Shown: piece after piece, positions 15,401 to 57,438 of the stretch
Position numbering within the stretch: position 1 is the stretch's first letter
How the letters are laid out: every line of letters starts with the position of its first letter
Source: Amanita rubescens
Taxonomy: Eukaryota; Basidiomycota; Agaricomycetes; Agaricales; Amanitaceae
Length of the DNA: 64,000 nt
Direction: 5' to 3'
NCBI GenBank assembly: GCA_015039365.1
Contig: WION01000061.1
Coordinates: 148,875-212,874 of the forward strand
Made by a program: the position numbers and the translations under genes
The notes under the pieces: model-generated
What the model saw: only the letters and a program-made list of their open reading frames with translations
Told to the model about the DNA's origin: nothing
Databases searched by the model: none

Positions 15401-18400
15401 ATGTCTAACGACTTGACGATTCCCAGTTCCATTCCCGTTTTGAATGGAACTAACTATAAAGAATGGGAACGCATGATGCGTTTCCTATTACAAACCAAAG
15501 GTTTATATCGGTACCTAAAAACCGATTATGTTCGTCCAAGACGGATAACGCCGTTGGAACAATTCTATCTGGACACAGGGGTTCAAGCCTTTGTTCCAGC
15601 TGTTCCAGCAACAGCAGCAGTTCCGGAAACGGAAACTGAAGATGCGATACCCGCAATGCCGGCACAACCGGCACAACCAGCCATCACTCAACAAATGATT
15701 GATGATGCAGAGGCTATCAAAAAGGCCTATGATGATTGGGTCGTCGAGGATGATCGCATCCTCGGATCCATCAACATGAAGTGTACTGCTACTATACAGC
15801 AGATCAACGAACATGTAGTTTCTGCACGAGTTCTATGGCAGAACTTAGCAGAACAATACGGTGTGACAACGTCTGCCGGTATTTACAATGATTTCCAATT
15901 AGCAATAAATTGGAAATTCCAAGATAAAAAGGATCCCACACAATCCTTAAACGACCTCCTCGCCATCATAAACCGCTTAGCATCAAGCGGAATTACATTG
16001 CCTGCAAATGTACAGGCAATGATTGTACTTTCAGCTGTCCCCCATCATTGGGACAACTTTGCCGCTGTGGTTCTAGCCACAACAGAACCATCGGATCTTA
16101 CGATCCAAGGGATACTTCCCTTAATTCAGAATGAGTGGCACCGAAGGCACCCTGAATCTGCTGCAACGGCTAATACGTCGCAACAACAGCAGCAACCATG
16201 GCAACAAGTACGTGGTCGAGGACGAGGACGTGCTCGCGGACGTGGCCGCGGAGCAGGTCGTGGACGTGGGGGAAGGCCTTATTCTAGGCCTCCACAAGGC
16301 GCTCAGACACCGGCTCCTACTGCTCCTCCAGCAAATCAAAATTGGCCGGGTAAAGTTGAGGGCCAAACACGTGGTCCTAACTGGGAGAGGAACCGAGAAC
16401 GCCGAAAGGCAGATGCAGCCGAGAAGAAGGCTGCCAAAGCCACAGAACATACTATGAGTTCTGCACATACTGTCGCCCGTATTGGACCTTATGACATCAC
16501 TGAGCCAGTTGCCGGCTCTAGCAAAGGCAAACAAAGAGAAAAGGACGAACAGGACTTTGAGTCCTATAAATCGAACCAAGGAATGGGGATATCGTCAGAC
16601 GATATCGATTACAAAAATATGGATATAGATCAGGAAGCTGAACTATATTATGACGATTATTACTATGAAGATAACGGCGAACAATGGTATGAAACCATTA
16701 AGAAACTGGAAATGGCTAACTTTCTCTTTATAGAGGCAGCGATGAAAATGGTGTTCCCCAAATTGGGACATCATCGTCGTACTATAAATTCCTTCTTTGA
16801 ACAATCTGTACTATATGATAGTATAAATTATAAAGAAAATTTAGACGAAACCTGCCTCGTAAGAGATAAGTTGTGTGACACTGCCATTTATAATGCAAAT
16901 ATGATCGAACGATCATATAATATTGGTAACATGTTTAAGAAACCTTTTACATGTTTAGCGGTCAATAAAAGAAAATTTAAAGATAAAGTACATCCGACAT
17001 GTCCCTGTCCGGAATGTGTTGAGAAACGTACTGGAGATACACTATGGATGTGTGACTCCGGTGCATCCGATCACTTTACCTTTAGTAGGAAAGACTTCTC
17101 TGAATACAGAGAATTTCCTGCAAATGAAAACCACAGTGTTAAAACTGCTAATGGTTTAGATCGTCTTGAGGGACTTGGCACAGTTATTCTTGAACACAAG
17201 TTATCCACAGGGGAAACAACACTCGTAAAGCTCTTTCCTGTCCTCTATATGCCACGGGCAACTGCACGCTTGATTTCAAACGGCAGATTGATCCGACAAG
17301 GATTAACTTGTAAACAAGATGAAAAGATGGTAGTCTTTTCCTTTACAGACTCGGGTAGAACGTGTATCGAAGGACATTACCTTATGCCCGATGATACATT
17401 AGTTTACGCTCGAGGTAGGATCATTATAATGAACCCTACACTGGTTTCCAGTCCTGGCTTAGCCAACAGGAATTCTAAATTAATTCTTGGAAGACCGACA
17501 AAGAAACCAAACGCAGAGTCTATAGAAAAATTATTAGACTATGAGACCTGGCATAAACGTTTTGGTCATCCATCTAACGAAGTCTTTTCGAAGATACCGT
17601 TAAATGTCAATGGATGGAAAGAAGTTACACTTCCAGAAGGAAAACTACGTTGTGAAGGTTGTCTAAAAGGCAAAATGAAGGCAAAACCTTATAAACTGTC
17701 TTCAAAGAGAGCTACTCGTCCCTTTGAGTTACTCCATATGGATCTTATGACCGTACCGGCCATATCTTACCACAAATACAAATATATTGGTGTCATCGTT
17801 GACGATTTCACCTCGTATACGTGGATTGGTTTATTAAAAACCAAAGATCAAACTCTAGAATATTTTACCGGATGGTATAATGAGTTTGTAGATCCTAAAC
17901 AACCTATTTCTCACCTCCGTTCTGATCGAGGGGGGGAATTTGTAAATAAAGCCTTTGAAGAATTCCTTAAATCCAAAGGAATTAAACATCAACAGACAGC
18001 TCCTTACACCCCACAACAAAATGGTCGCGTTGAATGCATGAATCAGACTTTGTCAGACAAAGCTGAGGCTATGCGATTAGACGCAGGATGTCCGAAATCT
18101 TGGTGGGAGTTCTCATTCAGAACGGCTGTGCATGTGTACAACCGCACTCCCCTAAAAGGGACTAAATGGAAGACCCCTCTGGAAAATCTTCTTAATAAAA
18201 AACCAGACGTATCATACTTTCGAGTATTTGGATGTGAAGCCTGGGTATTTATCCCTGATCAACGGAGACCGGATAAGCTGTCCGAAAAATCCGTTTTATG
18301 CACTTTTGTAGGATATGAATCAGGAACCAAAGGCTATAGGTTCATGACGTCGACAAACACACTGGTCATATCCTCCCAGGCTACATTCTTTGAAAACAGG

Positions 18401-18682
18401 TTTCCGCGCAAAGGAAAGACTGCAGATATAATTACTGAAGATCTTGGTCCGATCTGGGAGGCGATTCCTCAAGAGGAACCTAACCGCCCTCCACAAAATT
18501 TGGATTTAGATGACTTACTCCCAGAGAACCGTAGACGTTCTCCGAGCCGTAGACGCTCACCGAGTTTGGATCGAAGGGGTGCATCTCCTGATCGACAGCA
18601 GTCAGACCCTTCTGATGATTCAAACGATGATGATGACGGTGATGAATTTGCCGATCGTCAAAGAGATTTCCTGGATGATAAT
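15401..18682 (+). CDS. Element 1 Gag-Pol, N-terminal part (Gag, protease, integrase), cut by element 2
   Basis: Starts MSNDLTIPSSIPVLNG, a typical UBN2/copia Gag start. Gag carries an RG-rich tract (VRGRGRGRARGRGRG) where a CCHC zinc knuckle would be expected. The protease motif is CDSGASDHF, then the integrase HHCC region (HKRFGHPSNE..CEGCLKGK) and DDE core (LHMDLM, RSDRGGEF, E in GRVECMNQ; element 2 has R in place of that Cys). The frame stops at the inner LTR and resumes in phase at 26821. The N-terminal ~120 residues of Gag differ strongly from element 2, while later parts are nearly identical. Confidence 0.93.
18678..18682. repeat. Target-site duplication of element 2 (left copy)
   Basis: ATAAT at 18678-18682 is repeated at 26816-26820, directly outside the two inner LTRs. 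The sister element reads continuously through the corresponding site. Confidence 0.95.
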
Positions 18683-19089
18683 TGACGAAGAAGACAGGTC
18701 TACGCGAGAGCGTGTCCACAGCATGAGCAGGTGCAATAGCTTACCTATTGCGATATGATCTTAGCACTACCCTTCGGCGTAGTAGTGATAGTAAGAGGAA
18801 GAGAATGGATTGTCCTATTCTACGATACAGGACAGGTTTATATACTAAGAAAGAACAAATATGTGTCTACATATGTGTAAGCGTATAGTATAGATGGGAA
18901 GATATGGCGTGCTAAGCACACCATAAGATGTGATCATGAGTCTATCATGATGTCACCATGATATCATAATGAAGTCATTATGATGTCATCTCTATGTCAT
19001 ACATAAAGGATGACGCGAGCGATATGAGTAACATTGATTGTAGTCAATCAGTAGTTAATCATTCTATAAATATAATTCTATATTTAACA
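18683..19089 (-). repeat. Element 2 3' LTR
   Basis: 407 bp with TG..CA ends on the minus strand. The adjacent purine-rich tract (minus strand ..aagcgaaggggtg, plus 19090-19105) is the likely polypurine primer for plus-strand synthesis. Confidence 0.95.
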
Positions 19090-19111: not shown

Positions 19112-22100
19112 TTATTTAAAGTCTATGATGTTCTCGTCATAGAAGGGATCTATATCCGATTCCTGTTGATCAATAAGACCATCAAGAAGTTCCATCAACT
19201 TCTTGTGTGATAGACGATCAATATTATCTAATTCAAGATTTTGCCAATCAAGAATAAATTTCGTCAGATCACGGATTTCCTCAGTTTCTAATCGATCTGG
19301 TCTTTTGATTAGTGCATTTGTAGAAGTCGGATATTCTTCTAAGGAAAGTCCCAATCGTTCTCTAAAGAATTTGACCTTTTCAAAGGATAAATTCTTAGTC
19401 ATGAGATCCGCATTCTGTTCGTTGGTTGGTATGTATTCGAGGACTACCTTTTTAGTCTCGATCAACTCGCGAACGAAATGATAGCGAATATCTATGTGTT
19501 TGGAACGATGTTCTTGTGCAGGATTTTGTGCCCAAAATATAGCGCCTTGGTTATCTACACTAAGTAAGATGCTTTTAATGGGTGCACCTATTTCGTAAAA
19601 TAGATTTTCAACCCATGCAATCTGTCTTGCAGCATCTGATAAAGATATGTATTCTGCTTCAGTCGAAGACAGAGCTACAGTCTTTTGTTTTCTACTCGTC
19701 CAAGCTACCGCACCACCAGCTAACATTAAGACATAACCGTTTATAGATCGTCGTGTATTACGATCAGCGGCCCAGTCAGCATCAGCGTAGGCTCTAAATT
19801 TATTATTGCCTTTGGCGCTATAAACGATTTTGACGTTTAAGGTATGAGCAATGTATTTGACTATATACAATGCTTTTTGAATGTGTTCTTGGGACGGGTT
19901 TGATGAAAATTGGGACATCAAAATTACTGCATAAATTATATCAGGCCTAGTTCCTAAGGCAAGATATAGAAGGGATCCTATTATCTGTTGATAATAAGAA
20001 CGTTCCTGTGGTGTGCATTCTCCTTCATTCTTTATAGGAGCATACCCAGCAGGTAACGGTGTGCGTACAGACTTGCAATCTTCAAGTCCAAATCGCTTAA
20101 CAACCTTCAAGGCATAAGGGCCTTGATCTATTACTAAGAATCCTAAATCACGGTTGTAATTGACTTGAATTCGGAGATACTCTTTGATCTTTCCAAGATC
20201 ACGACATTCCCACATCTCCATAAATTTCTTTTTAATGGATACGATGGTGGAATCGTCATTTCCCATAAAGAGTATATCGTCGACATACAATATGCATATC
20301 GTAATAGTATTCTTGCCTTTACGAACGTAAACGCCAGAATCAGACAAGCATCGCTCGAAATGCAATGATTTCAACGATTTATCAGCTTGTTTATTCCAGG
20401 CATATGATGCCTGTTTCAATCCATATATGGCTTTCCTCAGCCTATATACTTTAGATTCTTGTCCTTTTACAACGAAACCTTCTGGCTGGGCCATGTAAAT
20501 ATCTTCATCAAGATCGCCATATAAGAAGGCAGTTTTTACATCTAGGGCTTGTATATCCCAGTTTTCAAGCACTGATGTGGCCAGAAGTATTCGGATTGTT
20601 TCATATCTCGCTACAGGCGAGAATGTTTCGTCGTAATCTAATCCGGGACGTTGACTAAAACCTTTAGCTACGACGCGAGCTTTTTTGCGTCCATCGGTTT
20701 TTAAGTCGAAAACCCAACGACATCTGATTAGGTTTCGTCCTTTTGGAAGATCAACTAACTCCCAAATATCTCTAGATTGAAGAGATTTAAATTCGTCATC
20801 CATTGCAATCTTCCATTGTTTATACAATTGAGGATTACTGGAGCGCATTTTAGATATATCTCTATAGTCATATGGAATATTATCCACAAGGGGGACAGCC
20901 GCCTTTAGAAGAAAATGAAGGAATTCATTTCCAGATTCATTAATCATTCGGGTTAAATGATCGTGTTCTGCAGATTTTAATTCAGATTTTAAAGCAAAGA
21001 TTTCTTTTAGTAGAGAAGCAGATTCATTCATTCTATCAGGGTTCCTGTCTGCTGACGGTGGATCCTGAGTCGAAGAACTCGGAGTTTTATCTTTTAACTG
21101 CTCTCGTAAAGCATCTCGCTTTTGCTGAATTTCTGCTTCTATCTGTGCAGGAGTTTTATCTCCATACGCGTTGTCTCTTTGTACCCTTGGAACTGGAAAA
21201 CGACCGGAACGGCGAGGACCTATTTGTACAGAGGGTGGACCAGGATCAGATATGATCGGTGGAGGAGGTCTAGGTCTCTGAGCAAATTCTCTAAAACGAT
21301 CTCTTTGACGTTGTTCAAATTGATCAAATTCTCGATCCGTCATAAATGGGTTTTCTATTTCATCACGATCCCTTTGATTCAAAGAGAAGGGATTATCTTC
21401 ATTCATAGGACTACGAGGCGAAGGTGGCCTAGATACATATGGTATCGGTGTTATAGGCCTAGAAGGAGCAGGAGTTTCCTCCTTTATTTGTGGAGAGGGA
21501 GTACGTCTAAAGGGTTCAGGAGTTTTACGTTTCTTAAACATATCACTCATTTGACGTTTGAATTGATCTCGTAAACGAGACTGTTTATCAATTCCTTGAC
21601 CCTTTTTCCAATCATCGCGCTGTCTACGATAATTGTTACGTCTTTCTTGTTCTCTTTCTTCCCTTTGCCTTCGGATATCATCATCCAAAAAATCTCTTCG
21701 ACGATCGGCAAATTCATCACCGTCATCATCATCGTTTGAATCATCAGAAGGGTCTGATTGCTGTCTATCAGGAGATGCACCCCTTCGATCCAAACCAGGT
21801 GAGCGTCTTCTGCTCGGAGAACGTCTACGGTTCTCTGGGAGTAAGTCATCTAAATCCAAATTTTGTGGAGGGCGGTTAGGTTCCTCTTGGGGAATCGCCT
21901 CCCAGATCGGACCAAGATCTTCAGTAATTATATCTGCAGTCTTTCCTTTGCGCGGAAACCTGTTTTCAAAGAATGTTGCCTGGGAGGATATGACCAGTGT
22001 GTTTGTCGACGTCATGAACCTATAGCCTTTGGTTCCTGATTCATATCCTACAAAAGTGCATAAAACGGATTTCTCGGACAGCTTATCCGGTCTCCGTTGA

Positions 22101-24958
22101 TCAGGGATAAATACCCAGGCTTCACATCCAAATACTCGAAAGTATGATATGTCTGGCTTTTTATTAAGAAGATTTTCCAGAGGGGTCTTCCATTTAGTCC
22201 GTTTTAGGGGAGTGCGGTTGTACACATGCACAGCCGTTCTGAATGAGAACTCCCACCAAGATTTCGGACATCCTGCGTCTAATCGCATAGCCTCAGCTTT
22301 GTCTGACAAAGTCTGATTCATGCGTTCAACGCGACCATTTTGTTGTGGGGTGTAAGGAGCTGTCTGTTGATGTTTAATTCCTTTGGATTTAAGGAATTCT
22401 TCAAAGGCTTTATTTACAAATTCCCCCCCTCGATCAGAACGGAGGTGAGAAATAGGTTGTTTGGGATCTACAAACTCATTATACCATCCGGTAAAATATT
22501 CTAGAGTTTGATCTTTGGTTTTTAATAAACCAATCCACGTATACGAGGTGAAATCGTCAACGATAACACCAATATATTTGTATTTGTGGTAAGATATGGC
22601 CGGTACGGTCATAAGATCCATATGGAGTAACTCAAAGGGATGAGTAGCTCTCTTTGAAGACAATTTATAAGGTTTTGCCTTCATTTTGCCTTTTAGACAA
22701 CCTTCACAACGTAGTTTTCCTTCTGGAAGTGTAACTTCTTTCCATCCATTGACATTTAACGGTATCTTTGAAAAGACTTCGTTAGATGGATGACCAAAAC
22801 GTTTATGCCAGGTCTCGTAGTCTAATAATTTTTCTATAGACTCTGCGTTTGGTTTCTTTGTCGGTCTTCCAAGAATTAATTTAGAATTCCTGTTGGCTAA
22901 GCCAGGACCGGAAACCAGTGTAGGGTTCATTATAATGATCCTACCTCGAGCGTAAACTAATGTATCATCGGGCATAAGGTAATGTCCTTCGATACACGTT
23001 CTACCCGAGTCTGTAAAGGAAAAGACTACCATCTTTTCATCTTGTTTACAAGTTAATCCTTGTCGGATCAATCTGCCGTTTGAAATCAAGCGTGCAGTTG
23101 CCCGTGGCATATATAATACAGGAAAGAGCTTTACGAGTGTTACTTCTCCTGTGGATAACTTGTGTTCAAGAATAACTGTGCCAAGTCCCTCAAGACGGTC
23201 TAAACCATTAGCAGTTTTAACACTGTGGTTTTCATTTGCAGGAAATTCTCTGTATTCAGAGAAGTCTTTCCTACTAAAGGTAAAGTGATCAGATGCACCG
23301 GAGTCACACATCCATAGTGTATCTCCAGTACGTTTTTCAACACATTCCGGACAGGGACATGTCGGATGTACTTTATCTTTAAATTTTCTTTTATTGACTG
23401 CTAAACATGTAAAAGGTTTCTTAAACATGTTACCAATATTATATGATCGTTCGATCATATTTGCATTATGAATGGCAGTGTCACACGACTTATCTCTTAC
23501 GAGGCAGTTTTCGTCTAAATTTTCTTTATAATTTATACTATCATATAGTACAGATTGTTCAAAGAAGGAATTTATAGTACGACGATGATGCCCCAATTTA
23601 GGGAACACCATTTTCATCGCTGCCTCTATAAAGAGAAAGTTAGCCATTTCCAATTTCTTAATGGTTTCATACCATTGTTCGCCGTTATCTTCATAGTAAT
23701 AATCGTCGTAATATAGTTCAGCTTCCTGATCTATATCCATATTTTTGTAATCGATATCGTCTGACGATATCCCCATTCCTCGGTTTGATTTATAGGACTC
23801 AAAGTCCAGTTCATCCTTTTCTCTTTGTTTGCCTTTGCTAGAGCCGGCAACTGGCTCAGTGATGTCATAAGGCCCAATACGGGCGACGGTATGCGCAGAA
23901 CTCATAGTATGTTCTGCGGCTTTGGCAGCCTTCTTCTCGGCTGCATCTGCCTTTCGGCGTTCTCGGTTCCTCTCCCAGTTAGGACCACGTGTTTGGCCCT
24001 CAACTTTACCCGGCCAATTTTGATTTGCCGGAGGAGCAGTAGGAGCCGGTGTCTGAGCGCCTTGTGGAGGCCTAGAATAAGGCCTCCCCCCACGTCCACG
24101 ACCTGCTCCGCGGCCACGTCCGCGAGCACGTCCTCGTCCTCGACCACGTACTTGTTGCCATGGTTGCTGCTGTTGTTGCGACGTATTAGCTGTCACGGCA
24201 GATTCAGGGTGCCTTCGGCGCCACTCATTCTGTATTAAGGGAAGTATCCCTTGGATCGTAAGATCCGATGGTTCTGTTGTGGCAAGAACCACAGCGGCAA
24301 AATTGTCCCAATGACGAGGGACAGCTGAAAGTACAATCATTGCCTGGACATTTTCAGGCAATACAATTCCGCTAGATGATAAGCGGTTTATTATGGCAAG
24401 GAGGTCGTTTAAGGATTGTGTGGGATCCTTTTTATCTTGAAACTTCCAAGTAACAGCTAATTGGAAGTCATTATAGATACCGGCAGACGTTGTTACACCG
24501 TATTGATTTGCTAAGTTCCGCCATAAAACTCTGGCGGCATTTACTTCTGAATTGATCTGCTGTATGGTAGCAGAACATTTCATATTTATTGATCCGAGGA
24601 TGCGATCATCCTCGACGACCCAATCTTCAAAAGCTTTTTTAACGGCCTTTGCATCATCAACCATTTGTTGGGTGATAGCTGGTTCACCCTCAACGGCTGG
24701 TATTGCAGGTGTTGCTGGATGTGCACCATGTGCGGCAACTGCTGCTACCGCAGGTTGTGGAGTTATGGCTGCACGAACACCTGTGTCGATGAAGAATTGT
24801 TGTAGCGGAGTAATCCGCGGAGGATGAACATAATCATCCTTAAGGTACTGAAACAGTCCCTTTGTTTGTAATAGGAAACGCATCATGCGTTCCCATTCTT
24901 TATAGTTAGTTCCATTCAAAACGGGAATGGAACTGGGAATCGTCAAGTCGTTAGACAT
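19112..24958 (-). CDS. Element 2 Gag-Pol polyprotein, intact
   Basis: 1948 codons without interruption. Order: Gag (UBN2-like, RG-rich tract near residue 275), protease CDSGASDHF (about 551), integrase zinc-binding region (about 712-760) and catalytic D, D, E (LHMDLM about 783, SDRGGEF about 845, GRVERMNQ about 880), an acidic Arg/Ser-rich linker, reverse transcriptase with YVDDILF (about 1558) and RNase H with YADADWA (about 1724), SSTEAEY and SKHIDIRYHF. All catalytic residues I can check are present. Gag lacks a CCHC knuckle; the RG-rich tract may bind RNA in its place (inference). Gag and Pol are one frame with no programmed frameshift, as in plant copia. Ends ..DPFYDENIIDFK. Confidence 0.97.
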   Translation of the reverse strand: MSNDLTIPSSIPVLNGTNYKEWERMMRFLLQTKGLFQYLKDDYVHPPRITPLQQFFIDTGVRAAITPQPAVAAVAAHGAHPATPAIPAVEGEPAITQQMVDDAKAVKKAFEDWVVEDDRILGSINMKCSATIQQINSEVNAARVLWRNLANQYGVTTSAGIYNDFQLAVTWKFQDKKDPTQSLNDLLAIINRLSSSGIVLPENVQAMIVLSAVPRHWDNFAAVVLATTEPSDLTIQGILPLIQNEWRRRHPESAVTANTSQQQQQPWQQVRGRGRGRARGRGRGAGRGRGGRPYSRPPQGAQTPAPTAPPANQNWPGKVEGQTRGPNWERNRERRKADAAEKKAAKAAEHTMSSAHTVARIGPYDITEPVAGSSKGKQREKDELDFESYKSNRGMGISSDDIDYKNMDIDQEAELYYDDYYYEDNGEQWYETIKKLEMANFLFIEAAMKMVFPKLGHHRRTINSFFEQSVLYDSINYKENLDENCLVRDKSCDTAIHNANMIERSYNIGNMFKKPFTCLAVNKRKFKDKVHPTCPCPECVEKRTGDTLWMCDSGASDHFTFSRKDFSEYREFPANENHSVKTANGLDRLEGLGTVILEHKLSTGEVTLVKLFPVLYMPRATARLISNGRLIRQGLTCKQDEKMVVFSFTDSGRTCIEGHYLMPDDTLVYARGRIIIMNPTLVSGPGLANRNSKLILGRPTKKPNAESIEKLLDYETWHKRFGHPSNEVFSKIPLNVNGWKEVTLPEGKLRCEGCLKGKMKAKPYKLSSKRATHPFELLHMDLMTVPAISYHKYKYIGVIVDDFTSYTWIGLLKTKDQTLEYFTGWYNEFVDPKQPISHLRSDRGGEFVNKAFEEFLKSKGIKHQQTAPYTPQQNGRVERMNQTLSDKAEAMRLDAGCPKSWWEFSFRTAVHVYNRTPLKRTKWKTPLENLLNKKPDISYFRVFGCEAWVFIPDQRRPDKLSEKSVLCTFVGYESGTKGYRFMTSTNTLVISSQATFFENRFPRKGKTADIITEDLGPIWEAIPQEEPNRPPQNLDLDDLLPENRRRSPSRRRSPGLDRRGASPDRQQSDPSDDSNDDDDGDEFADRRRDFLDDDIRRQREEREQERRNNYRRQRDDWKKGQGIDKQSRLRDQFKRQMSDMFKKRKTPEPFRRTPSPQIKEETPAPSRPITPIPYVSRPPSPRSPMNEDNPFSLNQRDRDEIENPFMTDREFDQFEQRQRDRFREFAQRPRPPPPIISDPGPPSVQIGPRRSGRFPVPRVQRDNAYGDKTPAQIEAEIQQKRDALREQLKDKTPSSSTQDPPSADRNPDRMNESASLLKEIFALKSELKSAEHDHLTRMINESGNEFLHFLLKAAVPLVDNIPYDYRDISKMRSSNPQLYKQWKIAMDDEFKSLQSRDIWELVDLPKGRNLIRCRWVFDLKTDGRKKARVVAKGFSQRPGLDYDETFSPVARYETIRILLATSVLENWDIQALDVKTAFLYGDLDEDIYMAQPEGFVVKGQESKVYRLRKAIYGLKQASYAWNKQADKSLKSLHFERCLSDSGVYVRKGKNTITICILYVDDILFMGNDDSTIVSIKKKFMEMWECRDLGKIKEYLRIQVNYNRDLGFLVIDQGPYALKVVKRFGLEDCKSVRTPLPAGYAPIKNEGECTPQERSYYQQIIGSLLYLALGTRPDIIYAVILMSQFSSNPSQEHIQKALYIVKYIAHTLNVKIVYSAKGNNKFRAYADADWAADRNTRRSINGYVLMLAGGAVAWTSRKQKTVALSSTEAEYISLSDAARQIAWVENLFYEIGAPIKSILLSVDNQGAIFWAQNPAQEHRSKHIDIRYHFVRELIETKKVVLEYIPTNEQNADLMTKNLSFEKVKFFRERLGLSLEEYPTSTNALIKRPDRLETEEIRDLTKFILDWQNLELDNIDRLSHKKLMELLDGLIDQQESDIDPFYDENIIDFK

Positions 24959-26820: not shown

Positions 26821-29385
26821 ATCCGAAAGCAAAGGGAAGAAAGAGAACAAGAAAGACGTGACAATTATCGTAGACAACGCGATGATTGGAAAAAGGGTCA
26901 AGGAATTGATAAACAGTCTCATCTACGAGATCAATTCAAACGTCAAATGAGTGATATGTTTAAGAAACGTAAAACTCCTGAACCCTTTAGACGTACTCCC
27001 TCTCCACAAATTAAAGAGGAGACTCCTGTTCCTTCTAGGCCAATAACACCGATACCATATGTATCTAGGCCACCTTCGCCTCGTAGTCCTATGAATGAAG
27101 ATAATCCCTTCTCTTTGAATCAAAGAGATCATGATGAAATAGAAAACCCATTTATGACGGATCGAGAATTTGATCAATTTGAACAACGTCAAAGAGATCG
27201 TTTTAGAGAATTTGCTCAGAGACCTAGACCTCCTCCACCGATCATATCTGATCCTGGTCCACCCTCTGTACAAATAGGTCCTCGCCGTTCTGGTCGTTTT
27301 CCAGTTCCAAGGGTACAAAGAGACAACGCATATGGAGATAAAACTCCTGCACAGATAGAAGCGGAAATTCAGCAAAAGCGAGATGCTTTAAGAGAGCAGT
27401 TAAAAGATAAAACTCCGAGTTCTTCGACTCAGGATCCACCGTCAGCAGACAGGAACCCTGATAGAATGAATGAATCTGCTTCTCTACTCAAAGAAATCTT
27501 CGCTTTAAAATCTGAATTAAAATCTGCAGAACATGATCATTTAACTCGAATGATTAATGAATCTGGAAATGAATTCCTTCATTTTCTTCTAAAAGCGGCT
27601 GTCCCCCTTGTGGATAATATTCCATATGACTATAGAGATATATCTAAAATGCGCTCCAGTAATCCTCAATTGTATAAACAATGGAAGATTGCAATGGATG
27701 ACGAATTTAAATCTCTTCAATCTAGAGATATTTGGGAGTTAGTTGATCTTCCAAAAGGACGAAACCTAATCAGATGTCGTTGGGTTTTCGACTTAAAAAC
27801 CGATGGACGCAAAAAAGCTCGCGTCGTAGCTAAAGGTTTTAGTCAACGTCCCGGATTAGATTACGACGAAACATTCTCGCCTGTAGCGAGATATGAAACA
27901 ATCCGAATACTTCTGGCCACATCAGTGCTTGAAAACTGGGATATACAAGCCCTAGATGTAAAAACTGCCTTCTTATATGGCGATCTTGATGAAGATATTT
28001 ACATGGCCCAGCCAGAAGGTTTCGTTGTAAAAGGACAAGAATCTAAAGTATATAGGCTGAGGAAAGCCATATATGGATTGAAACAGGCATCATATGCCTG
28101 GAATAAACAAGCTGATAAATCGTTGAAATCATTGCATTTTGAACGATGCTTGTCTGATTCTGGCGTTTACGTTCGTAAAGGCAAGAATACTATCACGATA
28201 TGCATACTGTATGTCGACGATATACTCTTTATGGGAAATGACGATTCCACCATCGTATCCATTAAAAAGAAATTTATGGAGATGTGGGAATGTCGTGATC
28301 TTGGAAAGATCAAAGAGTATCTCCGAATCCAAGTCAATTACAACCGTGATTTAGGATTCTTAGTAATAGATCAAGGTCCTTATGCCTTGAAGGTTGTTAA
28401 GCGATTTGGACTTGAAGATTGCAAGTCTGTACGCACACCGTTACCTGCTGGGTATGCTCCTATAAAGAATGAAGGAGAATGCACACCACAGGAACGTTCT
28501 TATTATCAACAGATAATAGGATCCCTTCTATATCTCGCCTTAGGAACTAGGCCTGATATAATTTATGCAGTAATTTTGATGTCCCAATTTTCATCAAACC
28601 CGTCTCAAGAACACATTCAAAAGGCCTTGTATATAGTCAAATACATTGCTCATACCTTAAACGTCAAAATCGTTTATAGCGCCAAAGGCAATAATAAATT
28701 TAGAGCCTACGCTGATGCTGACTGGGCCGCTGATCGTAATACACGACGATCTATAAACGGTTATGTCTTAATGTTAGCTGGTGGTGTGGTAGCTTGGACG
28801 AGTAGAAAACAAAAGACTGTAGCTCTGTCTTCGACTGAAGCAGAATACATATCTTTATCAGATGCTGCACGACAAATTGCATGGGTTGAAAATCTATTTT
28901 ACGAAATAGGTGCACCCATAAAAAGCATCTTACTTAGCGTAGATAACCAAGGCGCTATATTTTGGGCACAAAATCCTGCACAAGAACATCGTTCCAAACA
29001 TATCGATATTCGCTATCATTTCGTTCGCAAGTTGATCGAGACTAAAAAAGTAGTCCTCGAATATATACCAACCAATGAACAGAATGCGGATCTCATGACT
29101 AAGAATTTATCCTTTGAAAAGGTCAAATTCTTTAGAGAACGATTGGGACTTTCTTTAGAAGAATATCCGACTTCTACAAATGCATTAATCAAAAGACCAG
29201 ATCGATTAGAAACTGAGGAAATCCGTGATTTGACGAAATTAATTCTTGATTGGCAAAATCTTGAATTAGATGGAATTGATCGTCTATCACACAAGAAGTT
29301 GATGGAACTTCTTGATGGTCTCATTGATCAACAAGAATCGGATATAGATCCCTTCTATGATGAGAACATCATAGACTTTAAATAA
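26821..29385 (+). CDS. Element 1 Gag-Pol, C-terminal part (reverse transcriptase, RNase H)
   Basis: Continues the 15401-18682 frame in phase; the first ATG is only at 26947. Reverse transcriptase motifs (KTAFLYGDLDEDIYM, YGLKQASYAW, YVDDILFMGND) and RNase H (YADADWA, SSTEAEYISL, SKHIDIRYHFVR) are intact. The fragment has lost its LTR promoter connection because the inner element lies upstream. Confidence 0.93.
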   Translation: MRKQREEREQERRDNYRRQRDDWKKGQGIDKQSHLRDQFKRQMSDMFKKRKTPEPFRRTPSPQIKEETPVPSRPITPIPYVSRPPSPRSPMNEDNPFSLNQRDHDEIENPFMTDREFDQFEQRQRDRFREFAQRPRPPPPIISDPGPPSVQIGPRRSGRFPVPRVQRDNAYGDKTPAQIEAEIQQKRDALREQLKDKTPSSSTQDPPSADRNPDRMNESASLLKEIFALKSELKSAEHDHLTRMINESGNEFLHFLLKAAVPLVDNIPYDYRDISKMRSSNPQLYKQWKIAMDDEFKSLQSRDIWELVDLPKGRNLIRCRWVFDLKTDGRKKARVVAKGFSQRPGLDYDETFSPVARYETIRILLATSVLENWDIQALDVKTAFLYGDLDEDIYMAQPEGFVVKGQESKVYRLRKAIYGLKQASYAWNKQADKSLKSLHFERCLSDSGVYVRKGKNTITICILYVDDILFMGNDDSTIVSIKKKFMEMWECRDLGKIKEYLRIQVNYNRDLGFLVIDQGPYALKVVKRFGLEDCKSVRTPLPAGYAPIKNEGECTPQERSYYQQIIGSLLYLALGTRPDIIYAVILMSQFSSNPSQEHIQKALYIVKYIAHTLNVKIVYSAKGNNKFRAYADADWAADRNTRRSINGYVLMLAGGVVAWTSRKQKTVALSSTEAEYISLSDAARQIAWVENLFYEIGAPIKSILLSVDNQGAIFWAQNPAQEHRSKHIDIRYHFVRKLIETKKVVLEYIPTNEQNADLMTKNLSFEKVKFFRERLGLSLEEYPTSTNALIKRPDRLETEEIRDLTKLILDWQNLELDGIDRLSHKKLMELLDGLIDQQESDIDPFYDENIIDFK

Positions 29386-29940: not shown

Positions 29941-32900
29941 TTATCGAGGTCGCTGAATCCGATGTTGACGTCGGCGTAGCGCGAAATTTGATTGCGGATC
30001 GGCTAGAGCGCTTTGAAGCGTTTTCTCTCCTAGAAGATGAGCTGGCATCATGCCAGTGTTCCCTATGCCTCCAGAACGTTCAGGTGGTCCATTAGGATCG
30101 TCTCCATCGTCGTCACCATCGTTTGTCACATCCAGAAGGTCTTGAAGGTCAACAGATGAGTCTGAGTCACATTCTGGCTCAATCTGCTCTGAGGTGTAAT
30201 GATTATAAGCAGACAGAGGGGAAACATCACTTACTTCCTGTTATTAATGCAAAGAACTTTGTTGAGACTGTCTTTTTGATAATAGTATGTCACCAACTTT
30301 CTGTTGTTCATTGAGTTGCATATGTTTGATAAGCTGCACAAACATTAATGTTGCTTACTTTCTTTAAGCAGGTCAAGTGTGATGTGAAGCAGTGTTATAT
30401 TACTCACTCCCTGTCCATGAGAAGCTGGATTGACAAGTTTGCTTGCAATGATAGATTAACTCACTTGCTGATGCACAATAAGATCATTTACCAAAAATCA
30501 AAATTGAATCATGTCACTCACTTCCTGTAGATTATGGGACAAGTAGGGACAAGATTCCTGATCACAAAAGGAAGGATTTCTCACAAACTGTTGTCATGAA
30601 ATGAGATGTGAGATCTATGCTAGTTCAATGTCACTCACCCACTGATATTAATGTCTTCAGATCCTGCCAGCAAGAAGAAGGTGACAACTCACCTGTGTTT
30701 CACTCAGTTGTTCATTGGCCATCTGAAACATGATTAATCTTGTTCTCATGTGAGGGCATTTGAGTGTTACTTACCTCCCAATGAACTGTTACAAGTATTT
30801 ATCATTCCATATAAGCCCACCTACCTCACTGTCCACCTATTGCCATTTAACCTTTCCAATGCTAATGTGCAGTTTAAAGAAAATGCATACCCAGAGATGT
30901 GGAAATTTTGAGAAAACTATGAGAATGACATCATCCCATGTCCAATGTTTATGTTTCAGAACATGTCTGAACAATGTTGATGTTAGTAAGTGACATGTTG
31001 AATGGGACCCTCACTGAAATGCAGATTTAACACAAAGGTCAAGATTATTCATCTGTGTTGAAACAAACAGCTGATGTATGCCGCCATCATCTATTGCATC
31101 AGCAGTTTGCTGAGTTAATTCAGCACAATTCTTCTCTGGTAAATCCATGTCTATGGAACAACATTACACCAATTTTTCATGAAGAAATAAACCCCCATCA
31201 CTCTCACCTTCCAATTGCACATATGCCTTGGGAGGATATTTGGTATCCAAAACTTTAGGAAGATAAACTTTCTGAAAAGTGATTTCAGCAATTTCACTGG
31301 CTCTCTTCCACTTATCTTCATCCTTTGCATCAGGCAAGTTGACAAATTCAGTGGCTATTTGACCATCAAATTTAGTGAATATAACCACCAAAGCAACTGT
31401 AAAGGAAATATTTACTAGTCAGTACAAGTAGATTTTGTGGCAAGTTGGCCAATGGAAAGGAGTTAACAGTAGTTAAGGGTAAACAATATCCCCAAAACCA
31501 ACAAGTTACAAGATGAGATATGATAGGACTTGCCTCTGCCTGTCCCTTTATTGAAGAATTCAAGTTCTGCAGGTAGAATGGGACAAGGGCTGTCCATGGG
31601 TATACAGTACCTACAGAATGCCAGGTCAGACAGTACTGTAAAGAGATAAAGCAAGATACCAAATTACATGCAACTGGTTCTTCAGCTCAGTTTCTGCAGA
31701 CTTCTTTTCAATGAACTTCCAGGCAATCTCCAATTCCTCAGTTGAACCAGATTCAAAACCCTGTGAGTCATGGAAGACAAAGTTACTTCCAGGGTGTGTA
31801 ATTTGATGCCAAATATCATGCATGCCTCTCTGTTATCATTGCATGTAAATGGGTACATCCCTGCACCATTATTAGTGTTTCTATTTCCAGTCTCTCAGGA
31901 CCGAAAAAGACCGGAACTGGACCGGACCAGGACCGATTTGGACCGGACTGCAGTCTCAGGTCTTAGGAGGTCCAAGGGCAGTCCGGTTCCGGTCTTTTTA
32001 AATTTTTAAAATCAAAAAAACTGCAAAAGACCGGTCTAGACCGGTCCTAGACCGCTAATTGTCACATGTGACCAACACAGTCATGTTCTCCTATATTTTA
32101 GCTTTTTTTTGAGTATTGAAACATAAAAAACAGTTGAGATTTGAGTTCACAGTAGTAAAGTTTGTCAAAAGTTATATATAACATGTGAATTTTGAAATCA
32201 TCTGTTGTTGCAACACTCCAGGTAAGGTATTCTGAAATTAACTAATCTAGGTATGCTCTAGTACATCCAATGGAACATAGTTGAACAGTGGGAGGGTGAG
32301 GGTCAGCAACACTGGGCTTCATTCTCTCTTTGGTGATCTCTTTGGCAATCTCTTTGGCAATGTTTGGCAGTCTCCTGGCATCATTAAAAATGGTTTAATG
32401 TGGCTTATCTGGAGTGCAACTGGGTGTGAGATGATGTGAGGGGGTGGAGTGGGGTCTAATGGGACAAGCTGAGCAGTGGGAGGGTGAGGGTCAGCAACAC
32501 TGGGCTTCATTCTCTCTTTGGTGATCTCTTTGGCAATCTCTTTGGCAATGTTTGGCAGTCTCCTGGCATCATCAAAAATGGTTTTATGTGGCTCATCTGA
32601 GTGCAGCTGGGTGTGAGAGGGTGTGAGAGGGTGAGGGTTAGGAACATATTGATATTTATGAAGTTTTGTAGTTTTAAATTGTTGTATGGGAGACATAGGG
32701 ACATAGAAACTAATGTAAGGACTGGTCCAGACCAGTCCAAGACCGGTCCAGATCAGGACCAGTCCTGGACCGGTCTTAACCAGTCTTTTTTTTAAATTAA
32801 GACCGGTCTTGCGGTCTTAAGCGGTCCGGTTCCGGTCTTTTCGATATCAGGGACACCCTGAGACCGGTCCGGTTTCGGTCTTTCCAAAAAAGGAAAAAAA

Positions 32901-43051: not shown

Positions 43052-46000
43052 ATGTCTAGCGCCGGAAACATCAATATCTCCGGCAGCCAGTTCACCGATG
43101 TTGGGGGTAATCAGATCAATAATTACGGCCTTATTACTGGCAACTTGAACATGCCAGTGCATTATGGGAGCACTCGTGCGCTGTTTGCTTCCTACTCGTA
43201 GCTACCGGGTCGTGACCACATAGATACAGGGACTGTCTTTGATATCTTGAAGGACTCGAATCAAATTGCTATTCACGCCGCCTATAATTCTGCAGAACGC
43301 GAGTCAGAACATGCATCAACCTGTCAAGAGGGTACTCGCGAAAGGGTTTTGTCAAAGCTCATGCAGTGGTCCAGAGCTAGTGATGGATACCCAGTGTGTT
43401 GGCTCGAGGGACCTGCCGGCTCAGGGAAGTCGACAATCTTGCATACCATCGCGAAGCAATGTGACGATGAGGGGCGGCTCGCATTTAGCTTTTTCTTTTC
43501 AAGAGGCAAAGCCGATCGCAGCGATACGGTTAAAGTCATCCCCACATTTGTGTATCAGCTTGCTCGATCCCTTCCCGCAATTCAATCACCTTTGCTGCAT
43601 GTGCTCACAAAGAGTCATCCATTCGCTCCTTATCTCCGCTTGCACGATCAGCTCAAAAATCTCATCATCGATCCCACTCTTAGCATTCAGCAGGCCACCC
43701 TGCCCATGGTTGTCATTATTGATGGCCTTGATGAATGTAGTGGCGAGAATCTCCTACCGCAGCTCATTCACGCACTTGTTGATGCAACCTATTACCTTCC
43801 ATTCCGATTTCTCTTTGCAAGTCGGCCTGAATCTCATATCCGACAAACATTTGAATCCCCTTTGATCAAACCAAAGGCAGACTTCCTCTCACTTCGAGAC
43901 TTTCAGGCTCATCATGATGTCAGCAACTACTTGAAGCAGCATCTTACAGAAATACACAGGCAAAATTACACCATCATGCAAAAAGTACCCCATCCTTGGC
44001 CATCAGCAGAACAGCTTGTTGCTCTTGTCCAGAAATCAGAGGGTTTATTCATCTATGTGTCAACCCTGGTCAAATTTGTGGGTGATAGGCAAGGGCTTCC
44101 CCAGGAGAAGCTTGAGTTAGCTATAACAGCACATCATGGTGTTGATCCTCTATATGAGCAGGTTTTATCAAAAGCTCAAGCTGAGTCTGCTCACTTTTCC
44201 AGTGTAGTGGGTACCATCATATATCTCCACCACCCTCTTGCCATACATGACCTGGAGCAACTTCTACAGCTATCATCTGACCATATTCGACAAGCATTAC
44301 AGGGTTGCCAATCTATTTTTGTCCTTCCCAACACTGAAGAGGAATCAGTTCACCCATATCATGCATCATTGAAAGATTTTCTTAGTGATATGAACAGAGC
44401 AAAGGTTCATTTTCTTGACCCCAAGATGTACCATGTTACCATTCTGGCCAACTGCTTGCAGTTGATTGGGCAGGTGCATGACTCAAACCATGGTGTTCAG
44501 CCTCTGAAATATGCATATCAACAATGGTATTATCACTTCTCTTTGGCACTTTCACATCAGGCAACAATTGATTTGATGAAGAACTGTGGAAACATAGAGG
44601 TGTTAATGGTGAAGTTGAGCAGAGAGTGGTTAAAAACTTGGATGTATGGGCTGGAAGATGGATTAATGACTTTTTGTCAAGGTTATGATTCTGTTCTTAA
44701 ACAATTACAGGCAAGTTGTATTTAAACCACTATTGGAATATGTGCTCAAGCTTGTCAATCAAGCCACTGCAAAGAGAGTGGAAAGTTGTTACAGAGAGTA
44801 TGAATCAAATATTGGAGATTTCTAAGGTGAATAATCCCTTATGAAACATAATAGAAGGAAAATAACTTTGTTACTCTGCTTAGAATGTATGTAGCTTGAT
44901 ATAACATTGTGGCTCAAGTTGACTATCTTGTGCCTGAATAAATATCAGCTGGTGTGTATTTTGTCAATCTTTCTATAGCAAAGCAGCATTTCTCAAGCAA
45001 TTATCTCTAGAATGTAAGCAAGTTGAATTTGTTGGTATAATTGTCAAAATCTATTAATAATTGCTGTTCTAGAATGTAATATTTGTGCAAAATCAAAAAC
45101 CAAATATATTGCTAACTGATATTTTGTATTTCATTACTGTATCATTAGAAAGTAAGTTGCTTTGTTTTACATGTTTGATAACTAGTAGATGGTGGTATTG
45201 ATCACAAAATGTCTTAGTTTGTAAGTGGTACTTTCAAACATGAACATAATATTCTGATTATCACTTTGTGGCAACAATCTGTGTACAGCAAGTAAGTGAT
45301 TCATGTTGACATATGCAGAACCTCTTGGTAATGGTTTTGTGACATCCGGCTGTGTTCAGTATGTAAGTGATTCAGGTTGACATGTGCAGAACCTCTTGGT
45401 GATGATTTTGTGGCATCTGGCTGTGTTCAGTATGTAAGTGATTCAGGTTGACATGTGCAGAACTTCTTGATGATGATTTTGTGGCATCTGGCTGTGTTCA
45501 GCATGTAAGTGATTCAGGTTGACATGTGCAGAACCTCTTGGTGATGATTTTGTGGCATCTGGCTGTGTTCAGGGTGTAAGTGATTCAGGTTGACATGTGC
45601 AGAACCTCTTGGTGATGATTTTGTGGCATCTGGCTGTGTTCAGCATGTAAGTGATTCAGGTTGACATGTGCAGAACCTCTTGGTGATGATTTTGTGGCAT
45701 CTGGCTGTGTTCAGTATGTAAGTGATTCAGGTTGACATGTGCAGAACCTCTTGGTGATGATTTTGTGGCATCTGGCTGTGTTCAGTATGTAAGTGATTCA
45801 GGTTGACATGTGCAGAACCTCTTGGTGATGATTTTGTGGCATCTGGCTGTGTTCAGCGTGTAAGTGATTCAGGTTGACATGTGCAGAACCTCTTGGTGAT
45901 GATTTTGTGGCATCTGGCTGTGTTCAGTATGTAAGTGATTCAGGTTGACATGTGCAGAACCTCTTGGTGATGATTTTGTGGCATCTGGCTGTGTTCAGTA

Positions 46001-48371
46001 TGTAAGTGATTCAGGTTGACATGTGCAGAACCTCTTGGTGATGATTTTGTGGCATCTGGCTGTGTTCAGTATGTAAGTGATTCAGGTTGACATGTGCAGA
46101 ACCTCTTGGTGATGATTTTGTGGCATCTGGCTGTGTTCAGAGTGTAAGTGATTCAGGTTGACATGTGCAGAACCTCTTGGTGATGATTTTGTGGCATCTG
46201 GCTGTGTTCAGGATGTAAGTGATTCAGGTTGACATGTGCAGGACCTCTTGGTGATGATTTTGTGGCATCTGGCTGTGTTCAGGAAGTAAGTGATTCAGGT
46301 TGACATGTGCAGAACCTCTTGGTGATGATTTTGTGGCATCTGGCTGTGTTCAGTTTGTAAGTGATTCAGGTTGACATGTGCAGAACCTCTTGGTGATGAT
46401 TTTGTGGCATCTGGCTGTGTTCAGCGTGTAAGTGATTCAGGTTGACATGTGCAGAACCTCTTGGTGATGATTTTGTGGCATCTGGCTGTGTTCAGTATGT
46501 AAGTGATTCAGGTTGACATGTGCAGAACTTCTTGGTGATGATTTTGTGGCATCTGGCTGTGTTCAGCATGTAAGTGATTCAGGTTGACATGTGCAGAACC
46601 TCTTGGTGATGATTTTGTGGCATCTGGCTGTGTTCAGGGTGTAAGTGATCCAGGTTGACATGTGCAGAACCTCTTGGTGATGATTTTGTGGCATCTGGCT
46701 GTGTTCAGCATGTAAGTGATTCAGGTTGACATGTGCAGAACCTCTTGGTGATGATTTTGTGGCATCTGGCTGTGTTCAGGATGTAAGCGATTCAGGTTGA
46801 CATGTGCAGAACCTCTTGGTGATGATTTTGTGGCATCTGGCTGTGTTCAGGATGTAAGCGATTCAGGTTGACATGTGCAGAACCTCTTGGTGATGATTTT
46901 GTGGCATCTGGCTGTGTTCAGGATGTAAGTGATTCAGGTTGACATGTGCAGAACCTCTTGGTGATGATTTTGTGGCATCTGGCTGTGTTCAGTTTGTAAG
47001 TGATTCAGGTTGACATGTGCAGAACCTCTTGGTGATGATTTTGTGGCATCTGGCTGTGTTCAGAGTGTAAGTGATTCAGGTTGACATGTGCAGAACCTCT
47101 TGGTGATGATTTTGTGGCATCTGGCTGTGTTCAGTATGTAAGTGATTCAGGTTGACATGTGCAGAACCTCTTGGTGATGATTTTGTGGCATCTGGCTGTG
47201 TTCAGGATGTAAGCGATTCAGGTTGACATGTGCAGAACCTCTTGGTGATGATTTTGTGGCATCTGGCTGTGTTCAGGATGTAAGCGATTCAGGTTGACAT
47301 GTGCAGAACCTCTTGGTGATGATTTTGTGGCATCTGGCTGTGTTCAGTTTGTAAGTGATCCAGGTTGACATGTGCAGAACCTCTTGGTGATGATTTTGTG
47401 GCATCTGGTTGTGTTCAGTATGTAAGTGATTCAGGTTGACATGTGCAGAACCTCGTTGTGATGATTTTGTGGCATCTGGCTGTGTTCAGACAGTAAGTCA
47501 ATTAGCTTGACATTATGCAGAACCTCTTGGTGATGATTTTGTGGCTGTGTTCAGACAGTAAGTCATTCAGCTTGATATGTGCAGAATCTCTTCAAAAGTG
47601 ATAATTTTGTGACCCTTTGCTGGTACTTAGTTTGTAAGTTGTTTTCTTAGACTCAAAAAAAAAAAATTTTAATCATACATATTTGTATTTAGAATGTATG
47701 TCACTTTTTATTTGTTGGGACATTTGCTAATGTCCCTCTTGCTCATAAATCAGAATGTATGTACTTTTGTTCATTCCTTTACACCTGTGCTTCAGCACTC
47801 AAAATTTGTAGTGGGCATGTTACTTTTTTACATTTACATTCAAATTATGCTAACATTGTTTATTAATGTTATCAGAAGGTTAGTGGATTTTTTAACTAAT
47901 TTAAATTCAAATCTTTACTCTTTCTCTTGTCAGGAGGTATATGTAATACATCTTTTCTATCTCTGATTTGTATGCTAACTCTACTATTGTCTACTAAACT
48001 TAGTTGGTATGTTTCTTTACTCTTTTATGCTTAATAACTGAATTAATGTTATTTTTTGACTTCATTTTCAGATTGTATGGTTCTTCATCTGCAGTGCAGT
48101 GCAGAACTTTCTCATCTTTTTTCCTTTAGGATGTCAGTTTGTTACTCCTCATTTCAATTTTTATTGATGCAAAATTCAAATTGGGAATTTGCTAGCATGT
48201 ATGTATCCTCTTTGTTCTATACATAGCATACTAACATTTACCAATTACTTGTCTTTGAAGTACTTTGGTGCTGTTTTTAATTTTTCTATCTGTTTCCTGT
48301 TGTCATTAAAATATTCTACAGACAATTTTGTGCAACATTCCAAGTTGGATTGCACTCCCCCTCTCACCTAA
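43052..48371 (+). CDS. NACHT-type NOD-like receptor whose C-terminus may be built from 49 single-codon exons
   Basis: Exon 43052-43156 (MSSAGNINISGSQFTDVGGNQINNYG..) is followed by a 45-nt intron (43157-43201) that removes the only in-frame stop. Exon 43202-44710 carries Walker A GPAGSGKST (residues 105-113), Walker B VIIDGLDEC (about 206-214) and a C-terminal NACHT helical region. A GC-AG intron (44711-44763) leads to 44764-44826 (PLQREWKVVTESMNQILEISK). Then come 49 AG-NNN-GT units up to 48198, a 7-nt exon (48261-48267) and a terminal exon 48322-48371 (..NFVQHSKLDCTPPLT, stop 48369-48371). Every junction is phase 0 or balanced. NACHT proteins are STAND NTPases sensing non-self or damage. 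The alternative is a one-base indel near 44712, which would give FKPLLEYVLKLVNQA.. ending at 44825, with everything after it non-coding. Confidence 0.65.
44884..45291 (+). other. Seven single-codon exons upstream of the 71-bp array
   Basis: Triplets lie between a 3' splice AG and a 5' splice GT: AAT 44884-44886, CTG 44949-44951, AAT 45011-45013, AAT 45073-45075, AAA 45149-45151, TTT 45218-45220, CAA 45289-45291. Introns are 57, 62, 59, 59, 73, 66 and 68 nt. The first six differ in sequence. The 45076-45148 intron has a canonical gctaac branch site. Confidence 0.65.
45292..47489 (+). repeat. 31-unit 71-bp tandem array: 68-nt intron-like core plus a hypervariable triplet
   Basis: Each core starts GTAAGTGATTCAGGTTGACA and ends GGCATCTGGCTGTGTTCAG; the next three bases precede the next GTAAGT. 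Triplet positions are 45360 + 71k for k = 0 to 30, without a single slip. Counts: TAT 10, GAT 6, CAT 4, TTT 3, GGT 2, CGT 2, AGT 2, GAA 1, ACA 1. Across the core copies between k=0 and k=29 (about 2 kb) I count only about 13 substitutions, four of them the same GTAAGC donor change. Core length matches neighbouring introns, donor and acceptor are near perfect, and the branch site is less clear (candidate gtgatg). Confidence 0.85.
47490..48198 (+). other. Single-codon exons at and downstream of the array end
   Basis: After the last array triplet (ACA 47490-47492) come ACA 47555, TTT 47631, AAT 47693, AAT 47754, TGG 47812, AAG 47876, GAG 47934, TTG 48004, ATT 48072, GAT 48130 and CAT 48196 (first bases given). 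Introns are 62, 73, 59, 58, 55, 61, 55, 67, 65, 55 and 63 nt. The intron after TGG begins GC. From 47634 the introns no longer resemble the repeat, and several have canonical branch sites (gctaat 47729, gctaac 47854, actaat 47896, gctaac 47973). A 62-nt intron with actaac leads to the 7-nt exon at 48261. Confidence 0.65.
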
Positions 48372-56272: not shown

Positions 56273-57438
56273 ATGTCAACAGATCCACCTCAGGTAGTGA
56301 ATACTGGTACCTTTGCTGGATACCAGAATGTTGTTATCATGGATAGCCAATTCATGGAGGTATTGCATTTCACCATTTTTTCACCCAGATCTTGTTAATA
56401 AAAATTCTTAGATCAACTATTATCTTGCAGACCCCTCCAACATTGATCTACCTCCTTTACCTCCTATTAAACATTCTAGTACTTTCTTTACAGGCCAAGA
56501 TAAGTACTTGCAAAAGCTGAAGGATCACTTTACCTCCAATATTGGGGGTCAAAGAAAATTCTTTACTTTGCATGGTTTAGGTGGCATTGGAAAAACTCAG
56601 ATTTGCCTTAAATTTATTGAAGAAAATCCTGATTTGTGAGTATTTGATGCATTAGTATAGTAATTCAAAATAGCTGACCTATTCAAGGTTCTCTGACATG
56701 TTCTGGATTGATGCTTCTTCAGAGAAAACTGTTGAATTTGTACTCACACAAATATCCTCAGCCTACAGCACTTCACCAGATGGTAGACCCTCGGCTGGAT
56801 CTGCTCTCAAATGGATTTCTGAAAGGCCCAACTTTTTGATGGTCTATGATGGAGCAGATGGACATTACTCAGTAGTTGAGAAGTTCCTCCCACCAGGAAA
56901 TGGAGGAAATGTTTTGATAACAAGTAGAAATATTGGGTTGAAGAGGCTTACATTGAGCAACTCAACAGAGATTCATGGCATGGAAGATGAAGATGCTATT
57001 TCTTTGCTTTTGAAGTCAGGCATGCTTGACAACACAGATGATGATATCTGTAATCTGGCCCAGCAGCTTGTGTCACAATTGGATGGAATCCCTCTTGCCA
57101 TTGACCAAGCAGGAGCATATATGCATTCCTGTGGTTGCAGCATCAATGATTATTTGGAATTGTACACAAGATACAAGAATAAGTTAATGATGGATGCTCC
57201 AGGATTTCAGGGTGCTTCAGATTATGGGACATCTACATATGGGACATGGGATATTTCCATGAAAAAGATGGAGGATAGAGCTGCAAAGGACAGTTCCCAG
57301 GAATCTGCTGGAGCACAAAGTGCCATCAAGCTCTTGAGGATCTTTGCTTTCCTTGATCATGCTAATATACCAAAAGAATTGTTCAAAAATGCCACTGAGA
57401 ACTACATGAAAAGACATATTGTAAAGTGGTTAAGATGA
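56273..57438 (+). pseudogene. NB-ARC NOD-like receptor, truncated by a retroelement LTR
   Basis: Putative first exon 56273-56359 (MSTDPPQVVNTGTFAGYQNV..). Exon 56431-56635 has NIDLPPLPPIKHSSTFFTGQD and the P-loop GLGGIGKTQ; an intron (56636-56687) leads to exon 56688-57438 (MFWIDASSEKT.., FLMVYDGADG as kinase-2, NVLITSRN as RNBS-B, GIPLAIDQAGAYM as GLPL). The frame ends KWLR-TGA exactly where the LTR at 57436 begins, so the winged-helix end and any TPR array are lost. The join of the first two exons is out of phase by one base as I place it, so a small exon or different acceptor is likely. Similar in style to the TPR gene at the window start. Confidence 0.75.

Follow-up and report, generated by a model that had tools for sequence, protein, structure and literature searches.

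The stretch between positions 44,884 and 48,371 very probably encodes, in microexons, the tail of an NLR-like (NACHT) receptor of fungal type, with 49 consecutive codons each predicted to occupy an exon of their own. The window, meaning the whole stretch of 64,000 nucleotides that was analysed, corresponds to C557:148,875-212,874 of the Amanita rubescens genome of 75.7 Mb, and the elements of the gene as predicted from the DNA are as follows.

43,052-43,175 (+): first coding exon (MSSAGNINISGSQFTDVGGNQINNYG...), with a similar start in the A. rubescens protein P0001
43,230-44,710 (+): NACHT exon (Pfam NACHT 4.1e-12, NPHP3_N 1.6e-25)
44,711-44,763 (+): GC-AG intron of 53 nt, donor GCAAGT, frames joining at phase 0
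44,764-44,826 (+): exon PLQREWKVVTESMNQILEISK, like contiguous segments in Tricholoma matsutake P0038/P0041 (by eye) and also in P0058
44,884-45,291 (+): 5' run of 7 putative one-codon exons, N L N N K F Q
45,360-47,421 (+): hypervariable run of 30 putative one-codon exons (YYHGHYYRYYYSDEFRYHGHDDDFSYDDFY), within a 71-bp tandem array
47,490-48,198 (+): 3' run of 12 putative one-codon exons, T T F N N W K E L I D H
48,261-48,267 (+): 7-nt exon TACTTTG, followed by a last intron that is 54 nt long in 7 of 8 loci
48,322-48,371 (+): terminal exon DNFVQHSKLDCTPPLT and stop

The predicted spliced protein comprises 623 residues, contains a NACHT NTPase domain (Pfam NACHT 6.9e-12 and NPHP3_N 2.4e-25) and would read across the tail as ILEISKNLNNKFQ...TTFNNWKELIDHYFD; NCBI models of three paralogs show additional exons upstream of the first coding exon. 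The chain was found largely as an earlier sequence-only reading had described it: each of the 49 triplets, from 44,884-44,886 to 48,196-48,198, is preceded by AG and followed by GT or GC (49 of 49), the introns between them measure 55-73 nt, none of the triplets is a stop codon, and the chain leads into the 7-nt exon and then the terminal exon with its own stop at 48,371. That reading had counted two GC donors in the chain, of which there is one (GCATGT after TGG), the other 48 donors being GT; the further GC-AG intron at 44,711-44,763 lies upstream of the chain. The homolog P0002 ends in V-S-C-I against A-S-C-I elsewhere, which, judged from the protein, would fit a GTAAGT donor.

The core of the array is a 71-bp repeat present in 32 copies at 45,265-47,545 with a 96% match, and the model of the paralog protein P0001 ends ahead of such a tail. 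Both features would be expected of an ordinary minisatellite, in which an AG-NNN-GT unit was copied in tandem and coding would stop within the GC-AG intron, at 44,725, but the 3-nt spacing is held by 17 flank units and by an unrelated GTPase-like family as well, which makes this explanation highly improbable. The earlier claim that the spacing extends through array and flanks alike was borne out, as the chain exceeds shuffled sequence outside the array: on the 5' flank the longest chain is 6, with a maximum over 2000 dinucleotide shuffles of 2 (strict) or 4 (loose), and on the 3' flank it is 3 against 2 under strict rules (2000 dinucleotide shuffles) and 10 against 5 under loose rules, where GC and any AG are permitted. 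When spacings of 0-14 nt were scanned, long chains appeared at 3 nt only, apart from those at 7 nt, which arise mostly because the second GT inside GTAAGT echoes the first; on the 3' flank the chain reaches 6 at 3 nt and 5 at 7 nt, and the latter is still 4 after echo masking. The flank units are also mostly unrelated to each other, as had been asserted, with 16 flank introns about as unlike (mean identity 0.580) as shuffles (0.539), and 29 array introns 0.989 alike. Branch-point motifs are weakly enriched among 18 introns of the flanks (CTAAY in 6 of 18, p 0.04; CTRAY, p 0.16; YTRAY in 14 of 18, p 0.07), and this was counted against the microexon reading.

The array is present at eight loci including the window copy, and the NACHT exon is open in seven of these and broken in L014 (C605). 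With a direct pattern that permits array exon lengths of 0-14 nt, and that misses some units of L015 because its introns are more diverged, all 172 array exons of six intact loci were 3 nt long with no stop (window 32, L009 27, L011 35, L012 21, L013 35 and L015 22). The broken copy L014 has 22 array exons, 16 of 3 nt including two stops, and six of 2 or 4 nt. At L010 (C321), where the NACHT exon is intact, 31 array exons of 3 nt occur together with three consecutive exons of 4 nt at 6374-6521, which total 12 nt and lead to in-frame stops unless skipped; this copy may be a pseudogene of recent origin, or else a natural test of whether such exons are skipped. A path finder that penalises exon lengths other than 3 placed 280 chain exons in the six intact loci, 276 of 3 nt and 4 of 6 nt, again without a stop.

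Differential conservation was observed along the chain. The seven triplets of the 5' run are identical in L015, with indels in the introns, and the last two places of this run are occupied by TTG or a 6-nt exon in five other loci; the last 10 residues of the 3' run are the same in 7 of 8 loci and are matched by the protein P0058. Among the four pairwise comparisons of flank units made between loci, the window copy and L015 show exon changes in 0 of 51 bases and 0 of 17 lengths versus 45 of 963 bases and 13 indels in the introns; the chance of zero exon substitutions at the intron rate is 0.087, which is not significant alone, so that the intron indels are the stronger part of this evidence. 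Between the window copy and L013, 3 of 51 exon bases differ versus 6 of 980 intron bases, an excess of exon over intron seen in some pairs and due here in part to one exon being 6 nt long in L013, and these differences indicate that the 5' end is not frozen. Elsewhere among NACHT genes, 20 loci (L025-L044) of about 77 further matches, scanned on both strands over about 1.5 kb each side of the NACHT match, a range that a tail farther out would escape, gave strict chains of at most 2 and loose chains of up to 7, and four stretches on viral contigs fitted a pattern with none related to the NACHT protein.

The AG-NNN-GT spacing resembles recursive splice sites, and introns of 3 kb are unusual in fungi and would require stepwise removal, so the triplets might be relics of an intron-removal scaffold, the 3.4-kb region being one intron removed by recursive splicing with codons of no relevance. 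Such a scaffold is very unlikely, for intact loci avoid stops and keep their exon lengths strictly to multiples of three, a pattern that decays in the broken copy, the end codons are largely conserved, and proteins carry the same residues. The reading of the triplets as coding one-codon exons, proposed before these comparisons, is supported by the paralogs, by the decayed-copy control, by hypervariability that is restricted to the triplets, and by a homolog whose protein carries the end residues contiguously.

The array codons are hypervariable within nearly invariant introns. Diversity in the three exon columns is 0.683, 0.602 and 0.364 versus an intron mean of 0.016 and maximum of 0.116 over 68 columns, a ratio of about 23 to 43 fold, as calculated from 180 of the 186 units whose introns are 68 nt long at seven loci (L014 excluded), where the six units dropped for intron dissimilarity bias the set toward low intron diversity. 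The evenly spread mutation expected for a functionless minisatellite was not observed (exon 0.36-0.68 against intron 0.016), and the variation falls precisely on the three exonic bases. Only 14 of the 64 codons are used in the 180 units, mostly TAT, AGA, GAT, GGT and TTT, with T or A as the sole third bases. None of these codons is a stop, while column permutation gave a mean of 15.6 and a minimum of 5 stops in 20,000 permutations, figures to be taken as a guide and not as a p-value because duplicated units are not independent. So large a ratio is more than selection would readily produce by itself, and it would suit targeted hypermutation of the triplet as the source of diversity in place of selection; this is decidedly unlikely given the restricted codons, the absence of stops and the T or A third bases, and the codon restriction indicates that the product is at least filtered.

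The arrays differ between loci in length and codon order, the longest common codon string being GYYYRRFR. Near-identical introns around differing codons, together with the contiguous tail of P0058, might be taken for a burst of introners, in which copies of one mobile intron were inserted at each codon boundary of an exon that already existed, so that the introns would be younger than the codons. This origin is unlikely, since the arrays differ in length and order and share only short strings, the 16 flank introns are mutually unlike, and 49 successive insertions at boundaries would demand an implausible precision.

Protein relatives encompass the tail to differing degrees. P0058, from a JGI contig of 2,387 bases, is a 585-aa protein that runs without interruption. 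It has about 50% identity over the NACHT part and stays colinear with the prediction up to the C-terminus: NLNNKFQ corresponds to NKLHAKFR, the variable middle is of comparable length, and at the end TFNNWKELIDHYFDNFVQHSKL of the prediction aligns with TIGNWKSLVDHFFEHHQKESVL (score 64, the highest of 2000 shuffles being 39). P0058 may derive from a transcript or from an intronless gene, and in either case it indicates, at the level of aligned sequence, that the end codons encode a conserved protein segment. Among the best 120 of 742 NACHT relatives, it is the one with a clear C-terminal motif, the next best score of 40 being near the shuffle maximum; the named organisms among these 120 are Amanita rubescens, Tricholoma matsutake, Piloderma croceum and Sphaerobolus stellatus. 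The spliced tail itself found three matches from 24 candidate proteins, all of them A. rubescens models. The NCBI models P0121, P0122 and P0123, assigned to L010, L011 and L012 with codon strings among the criteria, include runs of one-codon exons (YYDDDDDDD, YSDGDGRYG) together with pieces of intron. P0001, which is NCBI's model for the C716 copy and matches locus L015 exactly from residue 41 on, has no tail, its end being read through the GC-AG intron, and the models of Tricholoma matsutake stop shortly past the pre-tail exon. In the public models examined, such tails are thus missed or garbled.

As a mechanism, the spliceosome would excise about fifty introns of 55-73 nt and leave one codon per step. 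Short introns are usually recognised across the intron in fungi. Two introns around a 3-nt exon could hardly be bound together, so that stepwise removal is probable, with the growing exon gaining one codon each time. The tail so added would consist of NLNNKFQ, about 30 variable residues, TTFNNWKELIDH and YFDNFVQHSKLDCTPPLT, with largely conserved codons at the ends and central array codons presumably under diversifying selection, while recent tandem duplication and exchange would keep the introns near-identical. The array would thus serve as an intron-made shuffling scaffold in which single codons are the variable letters; as every exon consists of whole codons in phase 0, the gain, loss or skipping of any unit would leave the frame intact. 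The tail most likely forms a variable recognition surface after the NACHT module. If codons are the selected variable and introns the shuffling frame, the introns would serve receptor diversification directly, and tens of 3-nt exons in series probe the lower limit of exon size, at which the spliceosome must go intron by intron.

A second chain was observed at the end of a GTPase-like gene in the window.

30,235-30,641 (-): 8 putative one-codon exons, W F E Q G K K E

The exons before this chain read RILVIGRANAGKTTILEKV, which by motif (by eye) looks like a P-loop GTPase-like protein unrelated to the NACHT family. PF01926 (MMR_HSR1) is precomputed in 6 of 52 relatives of this protein, and its relative P0124 is without a Pfam hit. 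The family has at least 40 matching loci including the window, and the chain is present in all six inspected, where the window and five further copies, two of these five with identical codons, have exons of 3 nt in 48 of 48 cases and introns of 46 to 65 nt; 3 nt is the sole fitting exon length among 1-12 nt in 37 of 42 steps. One copy, at C437:18,900-22,880 (L066, L069, L070, L071), has a chain of at least 61 consecutive microexons, all of them 3 nt long except for a single 6-nt exon, without stops and continuing at the end of the DNA examined. It includes a separate array with introns of about 62 nt, in which exon diversity is 0.72/0.67/0.49 versus an intron mean of 0.080 (9 of 13 units). With YAG acceptors only, this region gives a chain of 6 at 7-nt spacing versus 5 at 3-nt spacing, and with any AG the 3-nt spacing gives 15.

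The GTPase-like tail also has contiguous counterparts in proteins. The 386-aa frame of P0124, from a contig of 1,446 bases, reads NEQLSETKWFEKGKKESDREI uninterrupted, the C437 chain reads WFERGKKDIDREM, and the WFEQGKKE of the window exons is found as contiguous WFEKGKKE in P0124 and WFEHGKKD in P0126. The C437 chain scores 66 with P0124 (best of 5000 shuffles 63) and 61 with P0126 (54), and the eight residues of the window tie the best shuffle with P0124 (44) and score 40 versus 38 with P0126. P0130 and P0132 appeared alike by eye and were rejected as relatives of this tail, as their scores fall below shuffles (29 versus 54 and 37 versus 49). The parts of P0124 are spread across about 3 kb in the window gene, so P0124 would most simply be a spliced RNA or a copy thereof; it may also be an intronless gene, and part of the 3 kb may be an inserted element. 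At about 32,900-31,900 (-), an intron of the gene holds a stretch rich in GGACCGG-type motifs with the look of an inserted element (by eye). The window copy diverges from its relatives at 30,192 (-), right past the eighth one-codon exon. Of the 40 matching loci, 38 stop at or before query position 1061, and beyond it lie the window and one identical stretch of C321; since Copia-type elements adjoin the window copy, its tail is probably cut short.

Taken tentatively, the two unrelated families (8 NACHT loci and at least 40 GTPase-like loci, six of them inspected) may reflect a codon-by-codon diversification of receptors in Amanita, with introns as the recombination scaffold and in-frame skipping yielding a repertoire of tails per gene. 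It is possible, though less than even in our estimation.

Long series of tiny symmetric exons that encode variable proteins are known from the micro-exon genes of Schistosoma, where the exons are longer and of mixed sizes and the proteins and organism are other than in Amanita. The sequence-only reading had known of no described gene with such a series, a statement that does not hold, as NACHT-ANK (nank) genes with tens of codon-sized or 3-bp, alternatively spliced exons are reported for Tuber melanosporum in the excerpts of papers citing Iotti et al. 2012 (PMC4986451, PMC10197012, PMC3689799, PMC9815663). On these excerpts, the design has a precedent in Ascomycota. Both cases concern an ectomycorrhizal fungus with an expanded NACHT family, and in both the C-terminal part is diversified through tens of codon-sized exons (by sequence, 49 of 49 in the window gene), whereas Amanita belongs to Basidiomycota and has a GTPase-like family of the same design. 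The 623-aa model contains no ANK family at E 0.1 (Pfam), and the excerpts report alternative splicing of the microexons for Tuber. The excerpts of PMC9815663 also describe variable repeats after the NACHT module of fungal NLRs, which are highly similar, have few positively selected positions and are reshuffled between copies. Near-identical units with few variable positions are thus common to these repeats and to the Amanita array, but the conserved frame is protein in the former and intron in the latter, where one codon is the variable unit. Titles and abstract starts among the matches listed, with thin coverage of subscription papers, gave no basidiomycete or GTPase case, and no paper on such exons was found for Amanita; PMC12308204, where the words '3 bp exons' also occur, deals with mitochondrial genomes. 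As far as literature searches show, the occurrence in another phylum, the second family and the hypervariability limited to codons are new, and the design extends beyond one truffle family.

Various other elements were observed in the window. Copia-type retrotransposon frames lie at 15,401-18,685 (+), 19,112-24,958 (-) and 26,947-29,385 (+), the second with Pfam RVT_2 and integrase and the other two assigned by eye, and a Helitron-like helicase frame of 2337 aa at 4,314-11,327 (-). A tetratricopeptide array of 126-bp repeats (17 copies, 83% match) at 2-2,193 (+) is of the type of a further receptor-like repeat gene, and an NB-ARC fragment is present at 56,698-57,438 (+).
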